From assembly GCA_030949385.1 (NCBI GenBank), contig JAUZSP010000007.1:1-64000 (forward strand): a DNA stretch of 64,000 nt, given 5' to 3'. Under the pieces are notes generated by a model that did not search any database, was not told the DNA's origin, and saw only the letters and a program-made list of their open reading frames with translations. Position numbers and translations under genes: made by a program. This document shows positions 2,972 to 54,529 of this stretch, one piece after another. Position 1 is the stretch's first letter. The number at the start of each line of letters is the position of its first letter. The stretch is from Gammaproteobacteria bacterium (GTDB lineage: Bacteria > Pseudomonadota > Gammaproteobacteria > JAUZRS01).

Positions 2972-4489
2972 ATGAAACTACTCGGTTCACCCCCCAAAGC
3001 AACTCTGAAACTGCTCACCAGCCTGTTGATCTTTATCGCCTTTGCCATCGCCCTGTTTATGGTGTTGCTGCTCACAGAGAGTCTCTTCACCGTCTGGGCG
3101 CTGTTAGCGGAACAGTCTGGCTGGTTTATCGCCCTCTACGCCGGTGGCCTGTTTCTGCTTTCGGGCTTTTTTGTCCGCCTCATCTTGATCGTATTACGAC
3201 CGAAAAAACGCCCAAAAGTCAGCTCAAAACCACAACTACCACCCTCACAAGAACAGCTCCACGCAGAGCTGCAACAGGCCGCCGAACAAGGCATTGAGGT
3301 GGTAGAAGCACAAAAAGAGCTGGCAGAACTGCAACAACGCCAAACCGCCAAAGAGATCCACGTGGTGCTGTTTGGTTCCGTCAGTATGGGCAAAAGTGCA
3401 TTGATCAACGCCCTGCTACCAGGAGCCGAGGTAGAGACCGACCCACGCAGCGGCACCACTCAAACCATTCAACATTACCACTGGACTTCAGAACAGCAGC
3501 AAGCGCTGATTTTAACCGACATGCCCGGTCTGTTTGAACCCGACGGCCAATGCAGCCCGCTCTCCCAAGACGAAGCCAAACGCGCCCATTTGGTACTCTA
3601 CCTCTGTGATGGCGACCTGACTCGTGATCAGTACCACGAACTGGAAACCCTCATTGAGTGGCAAAAACCACTGGCTCTGGTGCTGAATAAAATCGACCGC
3701 TACAGTCAAGAAGAACTCGATCAGATCCAAACACGGTTGCGTTCACACCTAAAAACAGAACACCACATCCCCGTGATTCCGGTACAGAGCGGCGGCCAAC
3801 AAGAGGTGATTCGCGTTCTGCCCAACGGCGAAGAGGAGCGCGTCACCCGTACCCGCCCACCGCAAGTCAAAGCCCTCACTCACTATCTGGAGAGCACCCG
3901 CGAACAGCTCTGCCAACTGCACCAATCCCGCGACAATGGTTTTTTGCTGCTCGGCAAACAGAAACTGGAAAACGCCCTCAGTGACCACCGCCTGCAAGAG
4001 AGCAAAACCATCGTCAAAAGCCACACTCGCAAAGCGATCATCGGTGCAATGGCGGCGGTCACCCCAGGTACGGATCTGTTAATCCAAGGTTATCTTGGCA
4101 TTCAACTGGTGCAGAACTTGGGCAAGCTCTACGACATCCCCATTCAAGAGATCGACATTCGCCGTTTTATCAACATTGCCAGCAAACATGTGGGAAAAAC
4201 CTTGCCGATGATGCTCGCCATTGCCGGAAATGTGTTTAAATCCTTTCCCGGCATCGGCACCCTCACCGGCAGCCTGCTGCACGCCGTCGCTTACGGGATG
4301 ATTTTTGAAAGCCTCGGCAAATCCGTAGCTCAAACACTGCACACTTTTGGCAAGCTGGAACCCCAACACGCCATCCATCTGTTCGAGGAGAACCTGCGTG
4401 AAGATCTGGAACATCATGCGCGAAAACATGCCCAAATGGTCTTTGAGGAGCTCAAAAAGCAGCGAAAAAACCTCATCAGAAGGCGATAA
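2972..4489 (+). CDS. Membrane-anchored GTPase with C-terminal DUF697 domain
   Basis: The 505-residue protein has two N-terminal membrane segments (about residues 10-35 and 48-72), a Gln/Glu-rich linker, then a TRAFAC-type G domain. G1 is GSVSMGKSALIN, G3 is DMPG and G4 is NKID. The C-terminal 170 residues, rich in small hydrophobics (AAVTPGTDLLIQ), match DUF697, the domain of E. coli YcjF. Family members are linked to envelope or stress functions, but the partner is unknown. The end overlaps the start region of a second DUF697 GTPase in another frame, which implies one transcript and translational coupling. Confidence 0.85.
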   Translation: MKLLGSPPKATLKLLTSLLIFIAFAIALFMVLLLTESLFTVWALLAEQSGWFIALYAGGLFLLSGFFVRLILIVLRPKKRPKVSSKPQLPPSQEQLHAELQQAAEQGIEVVEAQKELAELQQRQTAKEIHVVLFGSVSMGKSALINALLPGAEVETDPRSGTTQTIQHYHWTSEQQQALILTDMPGLFEPDGQCSPLSQDEAKRAHLVLYLCDGDLTRDQYHELETLIEWQKPLALVLNKIDRYSQEELDQIQTRLRSHLKTEHHIPVIPVQSGGQQEVIRVLPNGEEERVTRTRPPQVKALTHYLESTREQLCQLHQSRDNGFLLLGKQKLENALSDHRLQESKTIVKSHTRKAIIGAMAAVTPGTDLLIQGYLGIQLVQNLGKLYDIPIQEIDIRRFINIASKHVGKTLPMMLAIAGNVFKSFPGIGTLTGSLLHAVAYGMIFESLGKSVAQTLHTFGKLEPQHAIHLFEENLREDLEHHARKHAQMVFEELKKQRKNLIRRR

Positions 4490-5781
4490 CAGCCCGCAAC
4501 CTCTGGAGCTGGCGCAAGAGAGCCTACGCACTCTGCTGCACGACAACCGCATTCCCAGCGCCATTCGTGAATCACTGGCGAGCGACTACCAGCAGGTCGA
4601 GCAGATGCTGGACAAAATGGAGCACGGCCACCTGCACATCGCCGTCTTTGGCCGCGTCAGTGTCGGCAAAAGCGCACTGCTCAACGCCCTCTTAGGCGAA
4701 AAACGCTTTGGGGTCAGCGCCCTGCATGGCGAAACCACACAAGCCAATTTTGCCAGTTGGCAACAGTTTCAGAGCGACGGCGTGTTTCTTATCGACACGC
4801 CTGGCATCAATGAAATCTCCGGCGAAGACCGTGAACGACTGGCACACGAAGTGGCTGGACGCAGCGATCTGGTGCTGTTCGTGGTGGACGGCGACCTGAC
4901 TGAAAGCGAATTAACCGCGCTGCGCACGCTGGCCAAAGAAAATCGCCCGATGTTATTGATCTTCAATAAGATCGACCGTTACACAAAAAAAAGAACGCAC
5001 CCTGATCCTCGAACACCTGCAACAGCGCAGCGACGGCCTACTGCCCAACAATCACATTCTGACCGCCTCGGCGCTGCCCAGCGAACGGCTCTACATTCAC
5101 GTAGATGAGGAGGGTAATGAAGAAGAGCTCTACAAAACCCCAAAAGCCGATGTGACACAACTGCGCGATCACCTCTGGCAGCTGTTGGAACGCGAAGGCC
5201 ATACCCTCTCGGCACTCAACGCCAGCTTGTTTGCCGGTAAATTGAGCGACCAAGTGGCGGCGCGCATCATCGCCGCCAAACACAACGTCGCCGAAAAAGT
5301 GGTGCGTTCTTACTCTGTCACCAAAGGGGTGGCCGTCGCCCTCAATCCGATCCCCATTGCTGACATCGTCGCCGCCTCCGCAGTCGATGCAACGATGGTG
5401 GTGCATCTGTCGCGCATCTACGGTATGCAGATCAAACGAGACGAAGCCGGTCAACTGATCAAAACCATCGGCGGACAGATGGCGCTGTTGATCGCTACGG
5501 TCTGGGGAGTCAACTTGATCTCCTCCGCCCTCAAGGCGGGCAGCGCCGGTCTCTCCACTCTGATCACCGCCAGCGCCCAAGGCGCGGTGGCCTACTACAG
5601 CACCTTTGTTGTTGGTCAAGCGGCAGAGCAGTACTTCGCTCAAGGAAAATCTTGGGGAGAGTCAGGGCCAAAACAGGTGGTGAAAACCATCTTGAACAAC
5701 CTCAATCAAGAATCGATTCTGCAACAAGCACGCGCAGACATCGTGCGTCACCTCAAGACCCAAACCTCAACACCACACTAA
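4416..5781 (+). pseudogene. Second DUF697 GTPase, interrupted by a frameshift at an A8 run
   Basis: The first frame encodes a soluble G domain with G1 GRVSVGKSALLN, G3 DTPG and G4 NKID, then goes out of frame just after NKIDRYTKK. Removing one A from the run of eight at 4985-4992 restores an open frame (ERTLILEHLQQ...) that continues through a DUF697-like C-terminus to TAA 5781. The whole would be about 454 residues. The start is uncertain: ATG 4416 or 4428, both inside the 3' end of the previous gene. The intact downstream frame suggests either an assembly error, a very recent mutation, or slippage on the A run. Unlike the first GTPase it has no N-terminal membrane anchor. Confidence 0.75.
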
Positions 5782-5858
5782 TTTCGTCGGATATTAATAA
5801 GACGGCGTATTGGATGATGTAGACCTGATTTTCACTCATCGTCACAGGCCACGAACGG

Positions 5859-6992
5859 ATGCCCACTGAATCCCAAACCCAACACTCCATTTTTTCCGAA
5901 TGTCAGCTCTGCACCGACCATAAGAATGAGAGCGTCAAACAGAGCTTCCTCTCTGCCATCAGTCACGAATTTAAAACCCCACTGACTAACTTACTCGGTT
6001 TCAGTGACATTTTACTGGCCAAAAAACAGAATCAAGAAGAACAAAAATTGCTTACCGACATTCAACAAGAAGGTGAAAAACTGCTGAGGTTGATCAATGA
6101 AGCACTGCACGCCAGGGAGCAGAACAAGCAGGCACCGGAAATGCAGCAACAACACGACGAACCCTTCTCTCTTAATATCCTCTGCAAAAAAATTGAAGAA
6201 CCTTACCAACTGCGCTGTAAAAACAAACACCTCGGCTTCTTTCTCAAAAACCATTTTGAAAATCGACAAGATCTTTTTTGCGGCGACCACCAACGTCTCA
6301 GATTAATTTTAGAAAACCTATTAGATAATGCCATCCAGCAGACAGAAAACGGCAGCATCGAGTTGGAGTTTGGCGGTCAGTACCAACAGACGCCCTTTTT
6401 TTTCTCCATCAACGTTAAACAAAATAACGCAACCCGAGCGCAGAGCAGATCAATGCCAGACCTGTACACCTGTCAGCGGCTCTTAAGGAAGATGGGCGGA
6501 AGATTGCACATGGAAAGTGAAATGAATGAACCTGTACGTTTTTGGGCTGAACTACCCTTAAAAGGCAGCACAACAGAACCCGTAGCAAAAAACCAAGCCC
6601 AACCGTCAAAACCACGCCTGTTGATCGTTGATGATATGGAAGAGATGCACCTGTTGCTTAAATTTTACTTACGCGGAAGTGATTGTTTATTGGACTTTGC
6701 CCACAACGGCAAACAAGCCGTCGAAATGCATCAACAACAACCTTATCAAATTATTATCATGGATATGAGAATGCCTATTATGGACGGCCTAGAAGCCACT
6801 CAACAGATCCGTCTCTGGGAGGCTGAACAACAACGAACAGCGAGTACCATTATCGCCTTAACCGCCGATCACAACTCACGACAACACTGCCTCTCCACAG
6901 GCTGTGATGAACTGCTGACCAAACCCGTACAACGTCAAAGATTGATCGACCTTATTACCATTTCACTTTCACAGGCGAGCCAAAAACCGTGA
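5859..6992 (+). CDS. Hybrid histidine kinase-like protein with degenerate ATPase domain and receiver
   Basis: Order of domains in 377 residues: a short N-terminus with CQLC, a HisKA dimerisation domain with the phospho-acceptor motif SHEFKTPLTN (about residue 36), a reduced HATPase region, and a C-terminal receiver (about 250-370) with the acidic pair DD, phospho-acceptor MDMRMPIMDG, LTAD and TKP. The ATPase keeps an N-box (LENLLDNA) but runs from SINVKQN straight to LLRKMGGRLHMES. The D-x-G-x-G, F and GtGLGL boxes are absent, so ATP binding is doubtful. No membrane segment is visible, so it is cytoplasmic. It overlaps the HPt gene by 4 bp and appears to be the first gene of a three-gene phosphorelay operon. 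Confidence 0.85.
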   Translation: MPTESQTQHSIFSECQLCTDHKNESVKQSFLSAISHEFKTPLTNLLGFSDILLAKKQNQEEQKLLTDIQQEGEKLLRLINEALHAREQNKQAPEMQQQHDEPFSLNILCKKIEEPYQLRCKNKHLGFFLKNHFENRQDLFCGDHQRLRLILENLLDNAIQQTENGSIELEFGGQYQQTPFFFSINVKQNNATRAQSRSMPDLYTCQRLLRKMGGRLHMESEMNEPVRFWAELPLKGSTTEPVAKNQAQPSKPRLLIVDDMEEMHLLLKFYLRGSDCLLDFAHNGKQAVEMHQQQPYQIIIMDMRMPIMDGLEATQQIRLWEAEQQRTASTIIALTADHNSRQHCLSTGCDELLTKPVQRQRLIDLITISLSQASQKP

Positions 6993-7294
6993 ACGACAAC
7001 CAACACCATGTCACCATTGATCTGGATCTTAAAGAGCTGATTCCGCTCTTCTTAGAGAATCGTCATAAAGACACCCTTTATTTACGCCAAGCACTCAATG
7101 ACCATAATCACCATGCCATTGCTCGCATTGGTCACAACCTTAAAGGCACCGCAGGCAGTTACGGTTTTGCCGGTATGGCGCAGCTGGGGCAAAAACTAGA
7201 ACAAGCAGCGCAGCAAGAAAATCCGAGCAAAGAAAACCAACTCATTGAGCGACTGGAAAGTCTACTCACCCTAACCGAAGTCTTTTACGAGTAG
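6989..7294 (+). CDS. Stand-alone histidine phosphotransfer (HPt) protein
   Basis: A 101-residue, mostly helical protein with the HPt signature HNLKGTAGSYGF, the histidine being the phosphoryl carrier. It starts with GTG overlapping the TGA of the preceding hybrid-kinase gene (GTGA), a sign of coupled translation. The next gene, a receiver-Ser/Thr kinase fusion, starts 3 bp after its stop. The order supports relay from the first gene's receiver to the third gene's receiver, though direction of flow is inferred. Confidence 0.88.
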   Translation: MNDNQHHVTIDLDLKELIPLFLENRHKDTLYLRQALNDHNHHAIARIGHNLKGTAGSYGFAGMAQLGQKLEQAAQQENPSKENQLIERLESLLTLTEVFYE

Positions 7295-7297
7295 ATC

Positions 7298-8575
7298 ATG
7301 CTTTCATTACAAACCCTAAAAGCGGAACCGGAAAAACCGCCCTCAATTTTAATTATTGATGACAGTGCCGATTTTCGTCGCCTGCTGCATCATTATTTGA
7401 AAAAACAATACCCCAACGCCGTAATTGAAGAGCGCGAGGGCCTCAACAGCAATATGGCTATGCATGAAGTATTGCATGCACGCTACAATATTATCCTGCT
7501 TGATTACCTGCTCGATTACACCCCAGGAGAACGCAACGGACTTGATATTCTGAGCGAATTGCGCCAATTAAAATGCAAAAGCAGCATTATTTTAATGACC
7601 GCTCACGGCGACGAACTGCTGGCGGTCAAAGCGATTCGCAACGGTGCATTTGACTACATCGTCAAACAAAATTTCAGTAAACAGGATTTCCTTAACAGCA
7701 TTGCCGAAGCGCTGTCGCATCAATTGGAGCTGCAACCTCAGAGCGCCAATACCCCCGATGTCACTGCCAGTGCCGAATTTGGTCACCACATGTTGGTGCA
7801 AGGTTATCGACCTCTCTACCGTCTCGGTGCAGGCGGGCAGGCGCTTACTTACCTAGCCGAATCGTTCAAAGACGGCCCCAAAGTGGTGCTCAAACTGCTG
7901 CCCAGCAACACCTCTGATACTCAAGTTCTGGGACGTTTTGTGCAAGAGTACGAAATGATCTCCAAACTGGAGCACCGCAATATTGTCCAGCTGCACAGCC
8001 AAGGCATCAGCGACAACACGGTCTTTATCGTTATGGAACATCTGCGCAACGGTTCTCTACGAGAAAAAATGTTGAGGCGCAAAATCCAGCCCCATGAAAC
8101 CCTCAGTATCATCCGCCAACTCAGCCAAGCCCTAAGCCACATGCACGAACACGGCGTATTGCACCGTGACATCAAACCCACCAACATCATGTTTCGTGAT
8201 GCCGACACGCCAGTCTTGATCGACTTTGGCGCGGCCAAACAGATGATCTCTCACAGCGATCTCACTCTGCACGGCGAAGTGCTTGGCACACCGCACTACA
8301 TGAGCCCTGAGCAAGCGCTGAGCGAACCGCTCAGCCCCGCAACCGACCTCTACAGCCTCGGCATTGTTTTTTATGAAATGCTCACTGGCGAGCTGCCCTA
8401 TCGCAGCGACCGCATTGCCGCCGTGATCGCCCAGCACCGCCTCTCGCCACTGCCAATTTTACCCAAACCGCTCAAGCACTTTCAGCCCATTTTAAACCGT
8501 CTGTTGGCTAAAAAAGCCCTGCTGCGCTACGATTCTGCTCGGGATTTAAAAGACGCACTGGCTGCGATACACTAG
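7298..8575 (+). CDS. Receiver-Ser/Thr protein kinase fusion
   Basis: The 425-residue protein has an N-terminal CheY-like receiver (about 15-135: acidic IIDDSADF, phospho-acceptor in ILLDYLLDY, LMTAHGD, conserved Lys in IVKQ) joined to a eukaryotic-type protein kinase (about 170-425). Kinase motifs are complete: glycine loop RLGAGGQALTY, ATP-anchoring Lys in VVLKLL, catalytic HRDIKPTN, DFGAAK, and activation-segment end SPEQ. There is no membrane segment or extracellular sensor. The likely input is therefore phosphorylation of the receiver through the adjacent HPt protein. The substrate of the kinase is unknown. Confidence 0.9.
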   Translation: MLSLQTLKAEPEKPPSILIIDDSADFRRLLHHYLKKQYPNAVIEEREGLNSNMAMHEVLHARYNIILLDYLLDYTPGERNGLDILSELRQLKCKSSIILMTAHGDELLAVKAIRNGAFDYIVKQNFSKQDFLNSIAEALSHQLELQPQSANTPDVTASAEFGHHMLVQGYRPLYRLGAGGQALTYLAESFKDGPKVVLKLLPSNTSDTQVLGRFVQEYEMISKLEHRNIVQLHSQGISDNTVFIVMEHLRNGSLREKMLRRKIQPHETLSIIRQLSQALSHMHEHGVLHRDIKPTNIMFRDADTPVLIDFGAAKQMISHSDLTLHGEVLGTPHYMSPEQALSEPLSPATDLYSLGIVFYEMLTGELPYRSDRIAAVIAQHRLSPLPILPKPLKHFQPILNRLLAKKALLRYDSARDLKDALAAIH

Positions 8576-8636
8576 CCAAAACAGTCAGATCTGTGGAATA
8601 CTCGCCAACCTCCTTGGTCAGTCGCAGAACAACACT

Positions 8637-9572
8637 ATGAAAAATCTCAGCAGCGCCGTCATTGGCGTCGGTTATTTGGGTCAATATCACGCCGAAAAAC
8701 ACCACAACATCAAAGGCATTGATCTCAAAGCGGTGGTGGATGCCGATGCAAAGCGCGCCCAAGAGATCGCCACCCGCCTCAACACCCACGCCTTAAGCGA
8801 CTACCAGTCGCTGCTCGGCCAAGTGGATCTGGTCAGTATCGCCTCTCCCACAGCCTCCCACTACCAAGTCGCGAAAGATTTTTTGCAGGCGGGCAGCCAT
8901 GTGTTGGTCGAAAAACCGATCACAGTCACCGTTGCAGAGGCGCAAGAGCTGGTCGATATTGCCAAGAAAAACAATTTAGTCCTGCAAGTGGGTCATTTGG
9001 AACGCTTTAACCCTGCCCTGCTCGGCATTGAAAAACAACTGCTCAAACCGATGTTCATCGAATCTCATCGACTGGCTCCCTTCACTCCCCGTGGATCTGA
9101 TGTCAATGTCATTTTAGATTTAATGATTCACGACATCGACATCATTCTCAGCATCGTTAACTCAGAGGTGAAAGAGATCGCTGCCAGCGGCACCTCGGTG
9201 CTCTCCAACGACACCGACATCGCCAATGTGCGTTTGGTGTTTGAAAACGGCTGCGTGGCCAACGTCACCGCCAGCCGCGTCAGTGTCAAAACCGAACGCA
9301 AAATGCGCTTTTTCCAGCACGATGCCTGCATCAGTGTCGATTTCCAGAACAAAACCCTCAATACCTATAAAAAGGGCGACAGCGAAAACGCAGCGGGCGT
9401 TCCTCAGATCATCAAACAAGAGACCCACTTTGAAAACAGCGATGCCATTATGGCCGAGACAACGGCTTTTATTAAAGCCATTCGCAACGGCAGCCGCCCC
9501 ATTGTCAGTGGCGAAGAGGGTAAACGGGCGCTGCACACCGCCATTCGCATCAGTGAGTTGTTGAACCTGTAG
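8637..9572 (+). CDS. Gfo/Idh/MocA-family NAD(P)-dependent oxidoreductase
   Basis: The 311-residue product begins with a Rossmann motif VIGVGYLGQYH and has the family motif VEKPITVT at about residue 98. The C-terminal half is the usual Gfo/Idh beta-sheet domain. Such enzymes oxidise a sugar or sugar nucleotide. The segment QVGHLERFNPA recalls the UDP-GlcNAc 3-dehydrogenase GnnA used for 2,3-diamino lipid A, but no gnnB- or lpx-type neighbour is visible, so the substrate is left open. It starts 61 bp after the receiver-kinase gene and may be read from the same transcript. Confidence 0.8.
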   Translation: MKNLSSAVIGVGYLGQYHAEKHHNIKGIDLKAVVDADAKRAQEIATRLNTHALSDYQSLLGQVDLVSIASPTASHYQVAKDFLQAGSHVLVEKPITVTVAEAQELVDIAKKNNLVLQVGHLERFNPALLGIEKQLLKPMFIESHRLAPFTPRGSDVNVILDLMIHDIDIILSIVNSEVKEIAASGTSVLSNDTDIANVRLVFENGCVANVTASRVSVKTERKMRFFQHDACISVDFQNKTLNTYKKGDSENAAGVPQIIKQETHFENSDAIMAETTAFIKAIRNGSRPIVSGEEGKRALHTAIRISELLNL

Positions 9573-14884: not shown

Positions 14885-15208
14885 TCAGATGTCGTGGTTG
14901 ATCTCTTCATTATCTGGCGAAGGATCGATGTCTTCATCATGGGTGCTTATCGCCAAAATCAATGCAGCCAACGCATCGTGCAAGGTGGCAACGTCAGCAC
15001 TGCGAGATTCTCGGTAACTGGCTTCTGCAGCTTCACGGAGTTTATCGAAAGCCTCAACGATACGCCCATCTTTGTCTATAACCCCTTCTGCCCAGCCAAC
15101 TGTGCTGGTATATCGGGCTGCCTCGGTTGATAACAAATCGATGGTTGCAGCATCAACTGGCGTATTCAGTGCTGCACGCATACCACTGTAAAGTTCATTA
15201 ATATCCAT
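14885..15208 (-). CDS. Conserved-looking 107-aa protein encoded with cbbX, function unknown
   Basis: A 107-residue acidic protein, [15 protein letters not shown]..., predicted mainly helical, with an Asp/Glu-rich tail (HDEDIDPSPDNEE). I do not recognise a family. Its ATG overlaps the cbbX stop (TAATG), so translation is coupled to the RuBisCO activase, and it is the last gene of the cbb operon. No signal peptide, membrane segment or metal motif is visible. By position it could be a RuBisCO- or CbbX-associated accessory protein, but that is inference only. Confidence 0.65.
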   Translation of the reverse strand: MDINELYSGMRAALNTPVDAATIDLLSTEAARYTSTVGWAEGVIDKDGRIVEAFDKLREAAEASYRESRSADVATLHDALAALILAISTHDEDIDPSPDNEEINHDI

Positions 15209-16179
15209 TAATTATCTTCTATCGCATCACTGCCTTCATCAACGTCCATGTCGGGTTTTCCTTCGAGGAACACACGACTGGCTAAAATATCTTCGGCTTC
15301 GAGGGTCATCAGATCTGTTTTGCTCAGTGATTTGCTGGCGTCAGCAAACAGGCGATTGGCCTGGCGTAAGCGAGCACGATCCAAAGCATTTCGCACCGAA
15401 CGTGCGTTAGCAAAATGTTCCATTGTCATGCGTATTGTAATGTATTTAAAAAAAGCTTTTTCGGCATCGGGGCTAAATAAATAGTTTTGTTCTGCCAACA
15501 TCAGCTTAGCAATTTCCAGCAATTCATCGGCGCTGTAGTCAGGAAAATCAACGTGATGAGCAACGCGTGAGCGCATGCCTGGGTTACTGTGGAAGAATTT
15601 ATCCATGCGGTCTTTGTAACCTGCCAGAATCACCACTAAATCATCGCGATTATTTTCCATTGTTTGCAGTAGGATTTCAATCGACTCTGCACCATAGTCG
15701 CGTTCGTTCTCAGGCTTATATAAGTAATACGCCTCGTCAATAAACAGCAAGCCGCCCATTGCTTTTTTAATCACTTCTTTGGTTTTTGGTGCGGTGTGGC
15801 CTATGTATTGGCCAACTAGGTCATCACGAGTAACGGAAACCAAATGACCTTCGCGCACATAGCCTAGGCGATGTAATATTTCAGACATACGCATGGCTAC
15901 GGTAGTTTTACCGGTACCGGGGTTGCCGGTAAAGTTCATATGTAAGGTAGGGGTCTCGGAGCTTAAGGAAAATTGTTTACGCAACCGATCCACCAGTAGC
16001 AGCGCCGCGATTTCGCGGATGCGGGTTTTAACCGGTGTTAAACCGATGAGTTCATTATCAAGCTTGTCGAGGACTTCTTTAACATTCGAATCTTTAAATT
16101 CTGCGGCAAGATTAACCAGCGCATCTTCTGCCAAAGTAGTATCTGCAGTTAGTTCATTTTCATCAACAGTGTCGTTCAT
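15208..16179 (-). CDS. cbbX: CbbX, AAA+ red-type RuBisCO activase
   Basis: The 323-residue AAA+ protein has Walker [10 protein letters not shown] (about residue 87), Walker [13 protein letters not shown], and the pore-loop/sensor region typical of CbbX. Known CbbX proteins form RuBP-stimulated hexamers that pull the C-terminal tail of red-type RuBisCO large subunit to release inhibitory sugar phosphates. Both its presence and its place behind cbbLS fit a form IC enzyme. A terminator-like hairpin separates it from cbbS, and its stop overlaps the start of the 107-residue gene. The N-terminal ~40 acidic residues are less conserved in the family. Confidence 0.93.
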
Positions 16180-16241
16180 ATCAATTTTTCCAGTTTGTTC
16201 AATTTTTTAAGTTTGATCAATCTTCATAATTGAGCAAACTT

Positions 16242-16277
16242 AAAAAATGGCGGGTGGTAGATACCACTCGCCATTTT
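16242..16277 (-). terminator. Terminator or attenuator between cbbS and cbbX
   Basis: A 16-bp stem (16244-16259 with 16262-16277, one G-T pair) is followed on the minus strand by a run of six T. It lies about 40 bp past the cbbS stop. Partial termination here would make much less cbbX than cbbLS mRNA. A second inverted repeat, TTAAGTTTG / CAAACTTAA, follows at 16207-16243. Confidence 0.75.
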
Positions 16278-16316
16278 AAGCACTAAGCAATTAACTTAAT
16301 TGAATCAGTTAATTGA

Positions 16317-16751
16317 CTAGTAGCGCTCACCTTCTGGCTTATCTGTTGCGTAGGAATGGATAGAGTAACGCATGGTACGTCCCTCTGTTTCCATACGCGT
16401 TAGACCAAAGCCTGGTTCAACTTTAGGTCGGTTAACAATATACGACATGGTCACACTCTCTACACCACGTACTGCACTAAATGCAGTAACGCGAATGTAG
16501 TGATTAGGGAAAGTTTTGCGGGCGTTATTAACTTCCATCAAAATTCCGGCCGGGTCTTTCATGTCAAACATCGGGTTACCGAACATTTCCCAGTAAGTAT
16601 TACGTGGGTGCGGATCGTCGGTATATTCAATACCCAGCGACCAGCTTTGATCCAGTGCGTATTTGATTTGCTTAGAAATTTCCTCATCGGACAATGCCGG
16701 TAAAAAAGAAAATTGTCCTTGAGTAACTATCTTCGAAGGATTCGTCATCAT
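16317..16751 (-). CDS. cbbS: RuBisCO small subunit, red-type (form IC)
   Basis: The 144-residue protein matches red-type small subunits: N-terminal VTQGQFSFLPALSDEEI, the central NTYWEMFGNPMFD, and a C-terminal extension (RPKVEPGFGLTRMETEGRTMRYSIHSY) that forms the extra beta-hairpin of form IC/ID enzymes. It joins CbbL in an L8S8 complex. The start ATG at 16751 has AGGAG eight bases upstream and is followed by a second ATG. It begins 15 bp past the cbbL stop. Confidence 0.95.
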   Translation of the reverse strand: MMTNPSKIVTQGQFSFLPALSDEEISKQIKYALDQSWSLGIEYTDDPHPRNTYWEMFGNPMFDMKDPAGILMEVNNARKTFPNHYIRVTAFSAVRGVESVTMSYIVNRPKVEPGFGLTRMETEGRTMRYSIHSYATDKPEGERY

Positions 16752-16766
16752 AATAATTTCTCCTAA

Positions 16767-18400
<1,634 letters not shown>

Positions 18401-47472: not shown

Positions 47473-48579
47473 ATGGGTAACCCTGTTAATAAACGGCTTC
47501 TCACCACCCTGATACCGTTAAATGCGTTGCGGCCTGAAAGCCTCAATGAACTGGCGAACAAAGCAAAAACCGCTAAGTTACGCTCGGGTCAGTTCTTGTT
47601 CAAAGCCGGTGATCACGACAAACAGCACATCTATCTGCTTTCAGGCAAGGTGGAGCTGCTCTCGGATCACGACGTGGTCTCCAACGTAAAAGGAGGGACT
47701 GATGCGTCCAAACACGCCATCGGCCACACCCAACCGAGAACCCTCTCAGCGCGCGCCAAAAGCGATGTGCATTATCTGCGCATCGACAGCGACCTGCTGG
47801 ACATTATGCTCACCTGGGATCAAACCGGCAGCTACCAAGTAGAAGAGTTGCAGGCCGACAACCCCACTTGGGTCAACACCACCAGCGCCGATTGGATGAC
47901 TCAGATCCTGCAAACACGCGCGTTCCATCGCATTCCACCGGCCAATATTCAGGCCATGTTTATGCGCATGGAGTTGATCAGCTATAAATCAGGCGATGTC
48001 ATCATTCGCCAAGGTGAAAACGGCGACTACTTCTACACCATCACCGACGGTCACTGTTTGGTCACCCGTGCCACCCCATCACAGCCTCGTGGGGTGAAAT
48101 TAGCTGAGCTGGGACCCGGTGACAGTTTTGGCGAAGAGGCGTTGATCTCCAGCGCCAAACGCAACGCCACCATTACCATGCTCACCGCTGGCACCATGAT
48201 GCGCCTCTCCAAAGAGGACTTTATGTCGCTGCTCAACGAACCCTTGCTCAATTGGGTAAACTACGCCGATGGGCAAGCAATGGTGCAGCACGAACGTTCC
48301 GTCTGGATTGATGTCCGTCTGCCGAGCGAATATCAACACGGCCACATCAAGGGCAGCATCAACATTCCACTGATATTTTTACGCATTAAGATCAAGAACT
48401 TAGATAAAACACGCAAATATCTTTTATGTTGCGATACCGAACGGCGCAGTTCAGCCGCCTCGTTTATTTTAAACGAACACGGCTTTGATGTTTATTTGTT
48501 GCAAGGAGGCATACCCAGCGTTCCCGCTGCCAATATTGTCACAGGAAAACCGCCTGTAGCAAAAACAAACCCCTCGTAG
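47473..48579 (+). CDS. Double cyclic-nucleotide-binding domain protein with C-terminal rhodanese
   Basis: The 368-residue protein has two cNMP-binding (CAP-like) domains, about 1-130 and 140-265. The second is better conserved (GDVIIRQGENGDYFYTI, LGPGDSFGEEALISS, RNATI). A rhodanese domain (about 275-355) follows, with DVRLPSEYQHGHIKGSINIPL and active-site loop CCDTERRSS, which retains a Cys nucleophile. There is no HTH, so it is not a CRP-type regulator. The first domain is weak in its phosphate cassette. It precedes the CHASE2 kinase by 22 bp and is likely co-transcribed. A cAMP- or cGMP-gated sulfurtransferase or scaffold is a reasonable guess. Confidence 0.88.
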   Translation: MGNPVNKRLLTTLIPLNALRPESLNELANKAKTAKLRSGQFLFKAGDHDKQHIYLLSGKVELLSDHDVVSNVKGGTDASKHAIGHTQPRTLSARAKSDVHYLRIDSDLLDIMLTWDQTGSYQVEELQADNPTWVNTTSADWMTQILQTRAFHRIPPANIQAMFMRMELISYKSGDVIIRQGENGDYFYTITDGHCLVTRATPSQPRGVKLAELGPGDSFGEEALISSAKRNATITMLTAGTMMRLSKEDFMSLLNEPLLNWVNYADGQAMVQHERSVWIDVRLPSEYQHGHIKGSINIPLIFLRIKIKNLDKTRKYLLCCDTERRSSAASFILNEHGFDVYLLQGGIPSVPAANIVTGKPPVAKTNPS

Positions 48580-48601
48580 CTTAAAGCGACCGTAACCTTA
48601 A

Positions 48602-51157
48602 ATGAAAACAACACTGTGGCGACAAGATTGGTTTATTATTCTGCTCATATCGCTGGCCGTGCTGCTTTTTTCTGGTGGCGTTTTTTTACAAGACTTGGAG
48701 CGCAGTGCCTACGACTGGGGCATTCGCAACGCGGCTAAAACCCCTTCCAAAGAGATCGCCATTATCGCCATTGATAAACGGAGTCTCGAAAACATCGGCC
48801 GCTGGCCTTGGCCACGCAGAAAACATGCCGATTTTATTAATCTGCTGAACAGTAAAGCCCAACCCAAACTGATTGCCTACAGCGTGCTTTTTTTAGAGCC
48901 ACAGACCGACCCTGGGCTGGCACACATCAACGACCTCATTAAACAGTTTGATGACTCTGGTCTGCAAGAATATGCCGACAACAACCGTTCTACCCCAGAT
49001 CAAAATACAGCGCGCAGTCTCACCAACCTAAGAGCAGAATTGTCACAGGCACAACAGGATTTAGAACAAGACAAACCCTTTGCCCAAGCTTTGAAAGAAG
49101 CCAACAATGTTATTCTACCCACGCTGTTTGATATTCGACCTTCCGTCAATAGGTATAACCAAACCCTCTCAAAATCCTTACAACAATACGCATTAAACTA
49201 CCAAGACAATGACAATGCCATTCAGCGCGGTGACCTGCCTCTCACAGCCTACAATGCCATTCCGCTCCACGAACCCTTTGCTCAAGCCAGTAACGGTATT
49301 GGTCACCTCAATATCGAACCTGACCCTGATGGCAGCATTCGCAGTGAACTGCTCGTCATCAACTACAACAGCAAACTCTATCCGTCCATTGCTCTGCAAA
49401 TTGCTATCAAAGCACTCAATCTTAAACCGCAAGATGTAGATGTACTGCTGGGCGAAGGGATCAGGTTAGGACATGTGCGCCTGAACATTAACTCTGATAT
49501 GCGTATGTTAATGACCTTTTACAATCAAGATAGATTTTCCATCGACTCCTACTACGATGTGATCAGCGGCAAAATTAATTTGGCAAAATACCGCAATAAA
49601 ATCATTCTGATCGGCTCCACCTCCTCAGGCTTGGGTGCCAATCAATTAACGCCTATAGACCCTACAATGCCTCCTGTTTATCTGCTCGCCCATGCGGTCT
49701 CCAGCATTTTACAACAAGAGTATTACTCCACTCCCTACTGGGGCGCAGCGCTCAAATCAGCACTCATTTTGCTTGTTGCACTCTATTTGATCCTACTCGT
49801 ACCCCGAGTTAACAGTCGTACCGCGCTTTGGTTGTCGTTCTTTATCGGCGGCGGCTTTATCACAGCGCACTTTTTCTCGATGTTGCAACACGACCTCTGG
49901 CTACAGCTGATGGCCCCCCTGTTTCTATTGGTCGTGGGGCACTTAACTCTACTGACCAAACTTTGGTTGAGGGCTGAAAAAGGCATTCTGCGCTCCGATG
50001 CCGCCTCTGCCGAGAGCAACCGAATGCTGGGTCTCTCACTGCAAAGCCAAGGACAACTGGATGCCGCCTTCGATAAATTTCGAAAATGCCCTCTAGATTC
50101 GTCACTGTTGGAGATCCTCTACAACCTAGCCTTGGATTTCGAACGCAAACGACAATTCAATAAAGCATCGGAACTCTATCGTTACATCAGTGACTTTGAC
50201 AATGGCTTTCGAGACGTGCAAAGCCGCATCACCCGCAACAAAGCGATGGAAGACACCCTCATTCTGGCCGCTGCCGGTGGCACCAATGCCAGCCTTCTCC
50301 TCAACAGCGACAACGGCATCGCCAAACCCAAACTCGGGCGTTATGAGATAGAGCGAGAACTGGGCAAAGGGGCGATGGGCGCAGTCTATTTGGGCAAAGA
50401 CCCCACCATCAGTCGTACCGTGGCGATCAAAACCTTGGCGCTCTCAAAAGAGTTTGACGGCGATGAATTAATTGCCGTTAAAGAACGTTTTTTCCGTGAA
50501 GCAGAGACTGCTGGCCGTCTCAATCACGCCAACATCGTCACCATTTACGATGCCGGTGAAGAACACGATCTGGCCTACATCTCGATGGAATATCTAAAAG
50601 GCCACGAGATGTCTCGTTACACCAAACCAGACGCTCTGTTGCCCGTCGCCAAGGTGTTAGAGCTAATGGCTCAAGCCGCCGATGCACTCCACTACGCTCA
50701 TGACAATCAAGTGGTGCATCGAGACATCAAACCGGCCAATCTGATGTACGAGCCTAAAACCGATACACTGAAAATCACCGACTTTGGCATCGCTCGCATC
50801 ACCGATTCCAGCAAAACAAAAACCGGCATGGTCTTAGGCACCCCCTCATACATGTCTCCGGAACAACTTTCAGGCAAAAAAGTAGACGGGCGATCAGATC
50901 TATTTTCCTTAGGAATCATGCTTTACCAACTCTTAACCGGAAAATTACCCTTTTATGCAGACTCTATGGCCACTTTAATGTATAAAATCGCCAACGAGAA
51001 ACACCCCGATCCGCTTCTGATACGGCCTGATCTGCCCTCTTGTGTACGCAGAGTGCTGAATAAGACCCTCTACAAAGACGCAGAACAGCGCTATTCCAGC
51101 GGCAATGAATTAGCTCGTGACATTCGAGCCTGCATGAAACAGCTGATCATCAATTAA
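48602..51157 (+). CDS. CHASE2-domain transmembrane Ser/Thr protein kinase
   Basis: The 851-residue protein has an N-terminal membrane helix, an extracytoplasmic CHASE2 domain (about 25-370; IAIIAIDKRSLENIGRWPWPR) and three membrane helices (about 383-455). A TPR-like linker (about 480-545) leads to an eukaryotic-type kinase (from about 577) with GKGAMGAVYLG, VAIKTL, HRDIKPANLM, DFGIAR and SPEQLSG. It would sense an external signal and phosphorylate cytoplasmic targets. The next genes are a PP2C phosphatase (25 bp) and an FHA protein, forming a kinase-phosphatase-reader operon. Confidence 0.94.
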   Translation: MKTTLWRQDWFIILLISLAVLLFSGGVFLQDLERSAYDWGIRNAAKTPSKEIAIIAIDKRSLENIGRWPWPRRKHADFINLLNSKAQPKLIAYSVLFLEPQTDPGLAHINDLIKQFDDSGLQEYADNNRSTPDQNTARSLTNLRAELSQAQQDLEQDKPFAQALKEANNVILPTLFDIRPSVNRYNQTLSKSLQQYALNYQDNDNAIQRGDLPLTAYNAIPLHEPFAQASNGIGHLNIEPDPDGSIRSELLVINYNSKLYPSIALQIAIKALNLKPQDVDVLLGEGIRLGHVRLNINSDMRMLMTFYNQDRFSIDSYYDVISGKINLAKYRNKIILIGSTSSGLGANQLTPIDPTMPPVYLLAHAVSSILQQEYYSTPYWGAALKSALILLVALYLILLVPRVNSRTALWLSFFIGGGFITAHFFSMLQHDLWLQLMAPLFLLVVGHLTLLTKLWLRAEKGILRSDAASAESNRMLGLSLQSQGQLDAAFDKFRKCPLDSSLLEILYNLALDFERKRQFNKASELYRYISDFDNGFRDVQSRITRNKAMEDTLILAAAGGTNASLLLNSDNGIAKPKLGRYEIERELGKGAMGAVYLGKDPTISRTVAIKTLALSKEFDGDELIAVKERFFREAETAGRLNHANIVTIYDAGEEHDLAYISMEYLKGHEMSRYTKPDALLPVAKVLELMAQAADALHYAHDNQVVHRDIKPANLMYEPKTDTLKITDFGIARITDSSKTKTGMVLGTPSYMSPEQLSGKKVDGRSDLFSLGIMLYQLLTGKLPFYADSMATLMYKIANEKHPDPLLIRPDLPSCVRRVLNKTLYKDAEQRYSSGNELARDIRACMKQLIIN

Positions 51158-51182
51158 CAAAGTGTCAAGATAAGGCAACAAC

Positions 51183-52010
51183 ATGATGGATTTAACGGGA
51201 AAACTGGAGATTGTGGGCAGAACCGACAAAGGCATGGTTCGCTCCCACAATGAAGACAGTTACGGCAGCGAAATCGGCAGTGGCATCACCGTGCTCGCCG
51301 ATGGCATGGGCGGCTACAAAGCAGGCGAGGTGGCCAGCGCCCTGGCGGTCAATACCATTATTGGTGACATCGCCAGCCGTCTGTTTGAGCTTGATCACAA
51401 AACGATGCGCGAAAACACCGGTTTTCGTGCCGAAAGCATCGCCTGCCGCCTGACCGTTGAAAAAGCCAACGAGGTCATTTATCAAACCTCGCAAAACCAG
51501 CCGCAATACAGCGGCATGGGCACCACCTTGGTTATGGCGCTGTTTTACGACAACCGCATCTCCATTGCCCATGTCGGTGATTCTCGTCTCTATCGCTTTC
51601 GCGAAAACAGCCTGGAACAGATCACTGTTGACCATACCTTGTTGCAAGAATTGGTAGAACGCGGCTTTTACACCCCAGAGGAAGCGAAAGCCTCTCTTAA
51701 TAAAAACTTAGTCACTCGTGCTCTGGGCATCGAACCCTTTGTCAAAGTTGACCTTCGAGAAGACATTGTCCTACCAGAGGACATCTATTTGTTGTGTTCT
51801 GATGGACTTAACGATATGTTGGAAGACAGTGCGATAAGCTTAACGTTACAAAAATTTAGTGATAACCTTGAAGAGGTTGCTAAGCAACTGATTGATCAAG
51901 CCAATGCCAACGGTGGAAAAGACAATGTTTCCGTCATTTTAATCAAGTCTTTGAAGACTTTTCCAGCCAAAAAACGCTGGTACCAAAGACTGTTTTCACG
52001 TTCTAACTAG
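51183..52010 (+). CDS. PP2C-family Ser/Thr protein phosphatase
   Basis: The 275-residue phosphatase has the metal-binding residues of the PPM family: SHNEDSYG, VLADGMGGYKAGE, HVGDSRLYRF, LCSDGLND and GGKDNVSVILI. It is soluble and presumably reverses phosphorylation by the kinase encoded just upstream. The FHA gene follows 22 bp later. Confidence 0.95.
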   Translation: MMDLTGKLEIVGRTDKGMVRSHNEDSYGSEIGSGITVLADGMGGYKAGEVASALAVNTIIGDIASRLFELDHKTMRENTGFRAESIACRLTVEKANEVIYQTSQNQPQYSGMGTTLVMALFYDNRISIAHVGDSRLYRFRENSLEQITVDHTLLQELVERGFYTPEEAKASLNKNLVTRALGIEPFVKVDLREDIVLPEDIYLLCSDGLNDMLEDSAISLTLQKFSDNLEEVAKQLIDQANANGGKDNVSVILIKSLKTFPAKKRWYQRLFSRSN

Positions 52011-52032
52011 AGACCCTGGTGGATAATGTAAG

Positions 52033-52731
52033 ATGTCCAAGTTAATTCTTAGTCTCGGCGGAGACACCCTCGGCGAGTACCAGCTCAGCAAAGAGCACAT
52101 CGTCATTGGGCGTAAATCCGGCAATGAAATTCAAATCGACAATCTGTCGGTCAGTGGTGCCCATGCTAAAATCATCACCATCCTCAATGACTCTTTCCTT
52201 GAAGATCTCAACAGCACCAACGGCACCTACGTCAATGGCTCACTGATCAAACGTCACGCCCTGCAAGACGGCGACATTATCAGCATTGGCAAACACCAGC
52301 TGAAATACGCCAAGCAGGGTCACCCCATGAACGAAACCGATGTTCATGATCGTGCCAAAACCATGCAAGCCGCTGGCATTGCTGAAGTGTTTCCCAATGC
52401 AGAAGATGGTGAGACCGCTGGGCGCATCGGCACCCAAGCCTCACCGGACATTTACACCTACGCCGCGCGTTTGCAAGTCGTTAGTGGTAAAAATCGGGGT
52501 AAAAAATTACAGCTCACCAAAGCCCTCACCACCGTCGGCAAACCCGGCAAGCAGGTCGCTGCCATCACCCGTCGCCCACACGGCTATTTTATTATCCATG
52601 TGGAAGGCGGCAAAGGTGCTAAATACCCTTCCGTCAATGGCCAACTGATCGGCACTCAAGCGCAAGCACTGAGCGACAAAGATGTAATCGAAGTGGCGGG
52701 GGTAAAAATGGAGTTTGTCCTCAACACCTAA
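52033..52731 (+). CDS. FHA-domain phosphothreonine-binding protein
   Basis: The 232-residue protein has an N-terminal FHA domain (about 18-90) with IGRKSGNEIQID, VSGAHAKI and DLNSTNGTYVNG, giving the Arg, Ser-x-x-His and Asn residues that read phosphothreonine. The C-terminal half (about 145-230) resembles a second, degenerate FHA fold (TTVGKPGKQVAAI, SVNGQLIG) without the full residue set. It is the reader of the kinase/phosphatase pair. Its stop overlaps convergent cysM by 4 bp. Confidence 0.92.
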   Translation: MSKLILSLGGDTLGEYQLSKEHIVIGRKSGNEIQIDNLSVSGAHAKIITILNDSFLEDLNSTNGTYVNGSLIKRHALQDGDIISIGKHQLKYAKQGHPMNETDVHDRAKTMQAAGIAEVFPNAEDGETAGRIGTQASPDIYTYAARLQVVSGKNRGKKLQLTKALTTVGKPGKQVAAITRRPHGYFIIHVEGGKGAKYPSVNGQLIGTQAQALSDKDVIEVAGVKMEFVLNT

Positions 52732-53710: not shown

Positions 53711-54529
53711 ATGACCAAAACCGCTCTCCACCTCTTAATCGTCGATGATCACAACATCAACCTTGAACTGTTAAAGCAATTTTTACTGCTGCTCGGCCTG
53801 CACGTGGATTGTGCCCAGTCGGGGCAACAAGCCATTGAGAAACAGTCAGTCAACAAGTACGACCTGATTTTTATGGATCTGCACATGCCGATGATGGATG
53901 GCCTACAAACCACCCGATTGATCCGTCAATCCAACAGCATCAACTGCAAAACCCCCATTATCGCTCTGACCGCAGACGTGCTGGCCAGCCGTTTAGAAAA
54001 AGCTCTAAAGGCCGGTATGGACGACATCATGATCAAACCGGTCATGATGGCAAAACTGCAAGCCATGTTAAAAAAATGGTGTGCCTCAACGGACTTCGAA
54101 GCAAAAAAACCAGCTCCCGCTGCCAAAAAAAAACCGATCAGCGAAACAAACCCACTGCCCCTCATCGACCCAGCTCTGGCTCTGCAACAAGCGGCGGGCA
54201 ATCAAAAACTGGCCAACGAGATGCAAGCCATGTTGCTCGACATGTTGCCAGAACAGCGTCAAGCGCTGAAAGTGGCCATCCAACAACGACACATCCAACA
54301 AGTGCATTTTCACGCCCACAAACTGCACGGTGCCAGCAATTACTGTGGTACACCCGCACTGACCCACGCCGCCAATCTAGTGGAAACGCAGATCAACGCC
54401 CGTCAGCTGGGCAAACTGGACCATCAAGTGGGCATGTTACTGATCGTCATTGATCAATTGATGGCCGCACTTAAAGCCCCTCAAACAGCACCATCCCAAC
54501 CACATACTCCTTCTCATCCGAAACAGTGA
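53711..54529 (+). CDS. Orphan receiver-HPt protein
   Basis: The 272-residue protein has a receiver (about 8-125: VDDHNINLELL, phospho-acceptor MDLHMPMMDGL, LTAD, IKPV). A Lys/Pro/Ala linker leads to an HPt domain (about 150-245) with the acceptor His in HAHKLHGASNYCG. This is the C-terminal half of BarA/GacS-type hybrid kinases without sensor, HisKA or ATPase. No frame upstream supplies the missing half. It may act as a soluble phosphotransfer hub or phosphate sink. Its 3' end overlaps convergent acpS by 59 bp. Confidence 0.88.
   Translation: MTKTALHLLIVDDHNINLELLKQFLLLLGLHVDCAQSGQQAIEKQSVNKYDLIFMDLHMPMMDGLQTTRLIRQSNSINCKTPIIALTADVLASRLEKALKAGMDDIMIKPVMMAKLQAMLKKWCASTDFEAKKPAPAAKKKPISETNPLPLIDPALALQQAAGNQKLANEMQAMLLDMLPEQRQALKVAIQQRHIQQVHFHAHKLHGASNYCGTPALTHAANLVETQINARQLGKLDHQVGMLLIVIDQLMAALKAPQTAPSQPHTPSHPKQ

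Follow-up and report, generated by a model that had tools for sequence, protein, structure and literature searches.

The window, the whole stretch of 64,000 nucleotides analysed here, carries at 5859-8575 on the + strand three genes, called as open reading frames (ORFs), for a HisKA-receiver protein, a free HPt protein and a receiver-Ser/Thr kinase (REC-STPK). The genes and their domains are as follows.

5859..6992, + strand: gene 1, HisKA - degenerate HATPase - receiver; ORF of 377 aa with ATG start
5937..6107, + strand: HisKA (DHp) domain (Pfam PF00512); acceptor His36, codon 5964-5966, in HEFKTP
6282..6563, + strand: degenerate HATPase (pseudo-CA) domain (Pfam, alignment); N box ENLLDNAI kept
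6621..6956, + strand: receiver 1 (Pfam); acceptor Asp302, codon 6762-6764
6989..7294, + strand: gene 2, free HPt; ORF of 101 aa with GTG start
7298..8575, + strand: gene 3, receiver - Ser/Thr kinase; ORF of 425 aa with ATG start
7346..7690, + strand: receiver 2 (Pfam); acceptor Asp69, codon 7502-7504
7790..8572, + strand: Hanks-type Ser/Thr kinase domain (Pfam); all catalytic residues

All Pfam matches of the three proteins were above the curated cut-offs. The GTG start of gene 2 lies within the stop of gene 1, giving a 4-bp overlap, and a gap of 3 bp separates the HPt stop from gene 3. This tight coupling had been claimed in the original prediction and was found as described, with the same trio in G001, the other species of the genus. 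Pfam placed a DUF697 GTPase gene upstream of the trio and a Gfo/Idh/MocA oxidoreductase gene downstream, and a promoter and terminator scan over 5700-8700 gave nothing usable. The GTPase-DUF697 gene (window 4347-5781) is broken into two frames near 5100; its G001 counterpart is unbroken, a single ORF of 487 codons, and the split in the window reflects a recent frameshift or else an error of assembly.

The second and third proteins have all the acceptor and catalytic residues of their domains. Protein 2 matched Hpt at 1.4e-11 and contains the H-x-x-K-G pattern, its acceptor His49 (codon 7133-7135) lying in GHNLKG. Protein 3 matched Response_reg at 3.3e-16 and Pkinase at 2.4e-46. Its receiver has the full D-D-D-T-K set (D21/D22/D69/T101/K123) and its kinase domain all the catalytic residues (K199/E217/D291/N296/D309), among them the defining residues of the Hanks type: the VAIK Lys K199, the alpha-C Glu E217, the HRD Asp D291 and the DFG Asp D309. 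The kinase is PknB/StkP/PknA-like by sequence, and its fold matched PknB/PknA. The structural model of the protein had a mean pLDDT of 84, with receiver 2 mostly at 84-95 outside residues 51-80; since a disordered linker occupies residues 147-164, we claim no interface between receiver and kinase. A fold search with the REC-STPK returned kinases alone among its best matches and no receiver-kinase arrangement. Together with the first protein, residues and Pfam matches confirmed the HEFKTP acceptor, the two receivers with intact Asp, the HPt acceptor His and the full eukaryotic-type kinase that had been read from the sequence before.

Protein 1 is of a different kind. It matched HisKA at 4.8e-13, Response_reg at 1.6e-21 and HATPase_c at 3.2e-7, the last weak and just above the cut-off. 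The H box is present (HEFKTP, H36), and receiver 1 has its phosphorylation set intact (D258/D259/D302/T335/K355). An alignment with nine intact kinases, drawn from this genome and from related modules, showed that the protein is about 25 residues short and has neither a G1 box (DxGxG) nor an F box nor the G2 glycines; the G001 protein lacks the same three elements. Most of the N box is the sole remnant of the ATP-binding boxes in both species. The phmmer alignment of protein 1 with ShkA breaks at the same place as the missing boxes, and an AlphaFold model from a shallow alignment, of modest confidence with a mean pLDDT of 72, shows a GHKL-like core. The best fold matches were ShkA over the full length and then the kinase region of RetS, which also matched by sequence; the best structural matches to receiver 1 include the GacS D1, PA1611 and SLN1 receivers, which come from hybrid kinases working with an HPt partner. 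Protein 1 looks soluble, shows no recognised sensor or membrane domain and has about 24 residues ahead of HisKA. Those residues include a CxxC motif (ECQLC-x-DH, window 5901-5921) that is conserved in G001 and is possibly a metal or redox site replacing a sensor domain.

It is well established for this family that a kinase without the G1, F and G2 boxes cannot autophosphorylate. As all three are lost in both species, protein 1 does not work as a kinase, and an autophosphorylating protein 1 was ruled out on this ground. The earlier suspicion that the first protein is unable to bind ATP was thus borne out and sharpened to three missing boxes. The residues retained point to a putative phosphotransferase, phosphatase or partner-dependent protein rather than an autophosphorylating head of a relay.

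The order to which the window genome (G000) belongs is represented by two genomes only, G000 and G001. In G001, the genes for HPt, REC-STPK and the oxidoreductase lie on contig C257, whereas gene 1 is split by the assembly across the ends of C151 and C257, again with the GTPase gene upstream. Identity between the two species is 82-83% for gene 1, 98% for the HPt and 94% for the REC-STPK. Nei-Gojobori estimates of dN/dS were 0.27-0.31 for the two G001 pieces of gene 1 and 0.34 for its pseudo-ATPase part, against 0.04 for the HPt and 0.06 for the REC-STPK. These values indicate that all three genes are under purifying selection, strong in the HPt and REC-STPK and least in gene 1, and that protein 1 evolves several-fold faster than its neighbours. 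The conservation and the low dN/dS argue that the trio is not a product of chance.

To place the kinase in a wider context, we surveyed full-length REC-STPKs with profiles built from six and later seventeen full-length rows. About 20 of the 274 sampled genomes of the class contained one (~7%, borderline loci checked), in agreement with the view that receiver-STPK fusions are rare. The hosts include named Woeseiaceae, Thiotrichaceae and other Gammaproteobacteria, and the spread is patchy. A phylum-wide distribution was considered and rejected: at E <= 1e-80, only G000 and G086 among 399 genomes had a full-length match, and the other matches of the phylum sample were to the kinase domain alone. 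The gammaproteobacterial relatives share the two-domain architecture over the full length at 30-41% identity but differ from the REC-STPK of the trio in being mostly orphans, many of them with non-phosphorylatable receivers.

Most REC-STPK copies have no phosphotransfer gene nearby. Linkage to such genes was found in at least four other lineages, scattered across the family tree, and in several forms. In G289, an HPt gene lies directly upstream of the REC-STPK on the same strand, 63 bp apart; in G043, a convergent HPt gene of the same subfamily, its product 36% identical to the window HPt, adjoins it. In G245, a PAS-HisKA-HATPase-REC hybrid kinase overlaps the REC-STPK by 4 bp, and beyond lie an HPt-like protein (Pfam 24.5 bits, just below the cut-off of 24.6), a CheY-like receiver and a second REC-STPK; its sister G133 has two REC-STPKs at about equal spacing. 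A CheA-like hybrid is found about 100 bp upstream of the REC-STPK in G140, and G209 has a row of CheA-like sensor, CheY, CheX and REC-STPK. The window genome itself has a REC-STPK paralogue of 41% identity (C1, L021 6083-8602) divergent from a REC-HPt gene, which is an independent HPt/REC-STPK pairing. On a maximum-likelihood tree of the REC-STPKs, the linked label needs four changes, two of them forced by well-supported branches, with the reservation that the backbone is poorly resolved and long branches were flagged. The exact trio was not seen outside the order of the window in the neighbourhoods examined, where the order amounts to two genomes, and we rejected the idea of the trio as a widespread module. 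The original prediction expected the three genes to occur together more than rarely, and here the survey was divided: the linkage of HPt and REC-STPK recurs, and the full trio is confined to two genomes, which counts in part against the prediction.

Two further loci were recorded in the survey. The G289 pair (L231 1-8403, C171) has as neighbours genes whose products resemble export proteins of the membrane-fusion and peptidase-like kinds, and a gene for a long protein with an LEPRxMMSADP start; these neighbours suggest control of an export locus by the HPt and REC-STPK. In G086, contig C6 (L065 7504-10323) has tandem REC-STPKs 12 bp apart with largely intact receivers, and no phosphotransfer gene was found alongside.

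The state of the receiver differs between linked and unlinked copies. The D-D-D-T/S-K set was complete in 8/8 linked REC-STPKs and in 8/34 unlinked ones, the remaining 26/34 having lost at least one receiver residue (Fisher p about 1e-4, a value that ignores kinship, the degenerate Woeseiaceae being one clade). In the Woeseiaceae clade the acceptor Asp is lost altogether. The orphan REC-STPKs of loci L088-L106, mostly from Woeseiaceae, have receivers without the acceptor Asp, Thr and Lys, with LLG replacing LLD, and are pseudo-receivers fused to intact kinases. With most members orphan and many receivers degenerate, phosphorylation is not essential to the REC-STPK family.

The window HPt is a member of a subfamily of free HPt proteins of about 100 residues, with strong matches in about 30 of 369 genomes of the class. 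The acceptor motif GHNLKG is identical in G001 and reads GHNLRG in the G043 HPt. Elsewhere in the class, the subfamily is flanked by a HisKA sensor kinase and a regulator of ~450 residues that contains a receiver and resembles NtrC in length and layout; in another setting it directly follows a HisKA-REC hybrid. Among the 274 genomes searched for both, with counts read by hand, 13 of the 20 with a REC-STPK also had this HPt subfamily where 1.7 were expected (hypergeometric p 1e-11, ancestry ignored). Counted by family, the numbers were 9 of 13 and 1.1 expected (p 1e-8 by the same test, ancestry again ignored). In most of the co-occurring genomes the two genes are non-adjacent, so the link, if functional, would act in trans.

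We also searched the window genome for possible sources of phosphate and found 15 HPt and 27 HisKA matches. The best 20 of the 27 HisKA loci include seven HisKA-REC hybrids that contain the G1 box and lack an HPt. Free HPts are two, the window's and one at C3:240299, and so small a number is as expected if the window HPt serves several kinases, as HptB does. Since protein 1 is not an ATP-using head, has no recognised sensor domain and evolves fast, the phosphate would come from elsewhere.

Taken together, the trio probably forms the final, output-giving part of a multistep His-Asp phosphorelay, with a Hanks-type Ser/Thr kinase attached to the last receiver. Phosphate would be supplied by ATP-competent hybrid kinases elsewhere in the cell and may enter at receiver 1, at His36 in a mixed dimer or directly at the HPt. 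From His49 of the HPt it would pass to Asp69 of receiver 2, and phosphorylation there would switch the attached Ser/Thr kinase; its sign cannot be read from the sequence, and we favour switching on. Protein 1 would serve as a local adaptor, either a phosphotransferase or, without signal, a drain. A relay feeding the REC-STPK is supported by the recurrent linkage and the intact receivers of linked copies; that it is complete and dedicated, as first proposed, was not supported, as protein 1 cannot be its ATP-using head.

Other readings give protein 1 or the whole trio a different part. It could be a negative regulator, RetS-like or of a phosphatase type, whose DHp domain or receiver acts on the HPt or on another hybrid kinase by binding or draining it, the HPt being loaded by other hybrid kinases in trans only, as in Pseudomonas HptB. 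The rank of the RetS kinase region behind ShkA among the structural matches, the sequence match to RetS and the presence in the genome of seven hybrid kinases that lack an HPt are consistent with this, as is the input that HptB receives from three hybrid kinases (PMC6482189). The intact residues of receiver 1, however, would be needless in a pure scaffold. RetS moreover is a sensor in the membrane and has a periplasmic domain of its own, and nothing of this kind was recognised in protein 1; on balance we consider such a regulator somewhat unlikely. That gene 1 is a decaying remnant beside a working unit of HPt and REC-STPK appears improbable: its catalytic boxes are gone, its dN/dS is 0.27-0.34 against 0.04-0.06 for its neighbours, and in G289 (where the contig end is close) and G043 an HPt adjoins the REC-STPK with no hybrid kinase alongside, but both species have kept the reading frame, the H box and the residues of receiver 1, and the dN/dS is well below 1.

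The three genes could also be mere neighbours with no phosphotransfer between them, the REC-STPK being constitutive or served by acetyl phosphate, and the many orphans in the family would fit this. Against it stand the junctions of 4 bp and 3 bp, conserved between the two species, the recurrence of HPt and CheA linkage elsewhere and the intact receivers of all linked copies, which make this account quite improbable. A self-contained relay headed by an autophosphorylating protein 1 could appeal to the intact HisKA domain and receiver, the retained N box and the HATPase_c match just above the Pfam cut-off; with G1, F and G2 missing in both species and ~25 residues deleted in comparison with nine intact kinases, its chances are minimal.

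The proposed output of a phosphorelay resembles known systems in parts. In Pseudomonas aeruginosa, the hybrid kinases PA1611, SagS and ErcS' act through HptB on HsbR, a receiver-PP2C-kinase (PMC6482189). As in HptB-HsbR-HsbA, a free HPt would connect hybrid kinases with a receiver that is joined to enzymes of Ser/Thr phospho-signalling. The pathway differs in that its hybrid kinases are encoded by separate genes and feed in trans. The output of HsbR differs as well: it is a PP2C phosphatase together with an anti-sigma kinase of the GHKL type, whereas that of the trio is a Hanks-type kinase with no PP2C or GHKL domain, and no HsbA-like partner adjoins the trio. Degenerate kinases that act as phosphotransferases are known in PhyT, Spo0B and ChpT (PMC5898713, PMC9981736). 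Protein 1 shares with these an intact acceptor His and a degenerate ATPase domain but has an extra C-terminal receiver and a separate HPt alongside, and PhyT is membrane-bound. The likeness to RetS lies, besides the fold, in a relative of hybrid kinases that modulates another hybrid kinase; protein 1 differs in looking soluble and in being operon-linked to an HPt and its output. The HOG pathway of yeast, Sln1-Ypd1-Ssk1-Ssk2, likewise uses a hybrid kinase, an HPt and a receiver to control a Ser/Thr kinase. There, the receiver and the kinase are two proteins, Ssk1 and Ssk2, and Ssk1 activates in its unphosphorylated form, whereas the trio has receiver and kinase in one polypeptide and a first protein without ATPase motifs. 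HptB-HsbR and Sln1-Ypd1-Ssk1-Ssk2 are the closest analogues of the trio, which belongs to neither class.

Other genes in the window inform on the host. About 40 kb downstream of the trio (window 47473-52731), a cluster encodes a cyclic-nucleotide-binding/rhodanese protein, a CHASE2-Ser/Thr kinase of 851 aa, a Stp1-type PP2C phosphatase and an FHA protein. It is a second Ser/Thr signalling locus, and its kinase, phosphatase and FHA protein mean that Ser/Thr phospho-signalling exists in the organism. A stand-alone REC-HPt protein of 272 aa, similar to the BarA C terminus (53711-54529), adjoins the PP2C/FHA cluster. On the minus strand at 15208-18242, genes read like the large and small subunits of RuBisCO and a CbbX-like ATPase, and on their account the host is probably an autotrophic gammaproteobacterium.

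Searches of open-licence full texts turned up no account of a REC-STPK paired with an HPt, a result that speaks weakly for novelty. In most descriptions, bacterial His-Asp relays and Hanks-type kinases are kept apart and come into contact where a response regulator is the target of a Ser/Thr kinase. In a broader and more tentative reading, several hybrid kinases might converge as on a hub on a single free HPt, which would in turn switch a Hanks-type kinase, with a histidine-kinase pseudoenzyme as adaptor. We can suggest only with similar reserve that this would be a bacterial counterpart of Sln1-Ypd1-Ssk1-Ssk2 in fused form, assembled more than once around a single REC-STPK family. The contrast within that family between linked copies with intact receivers and orphans with dead ones makes the gating of a Hanks kinase by a receiver testable, and the histidine-kinase pseudoenzyme beside an HPt is a second testable oddity. 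If the proposed phosphorelay is true, the usual order would be reversed, with the relay directly controlling a Ser/Thr kinase and both phosphorylation systems joined in one line.
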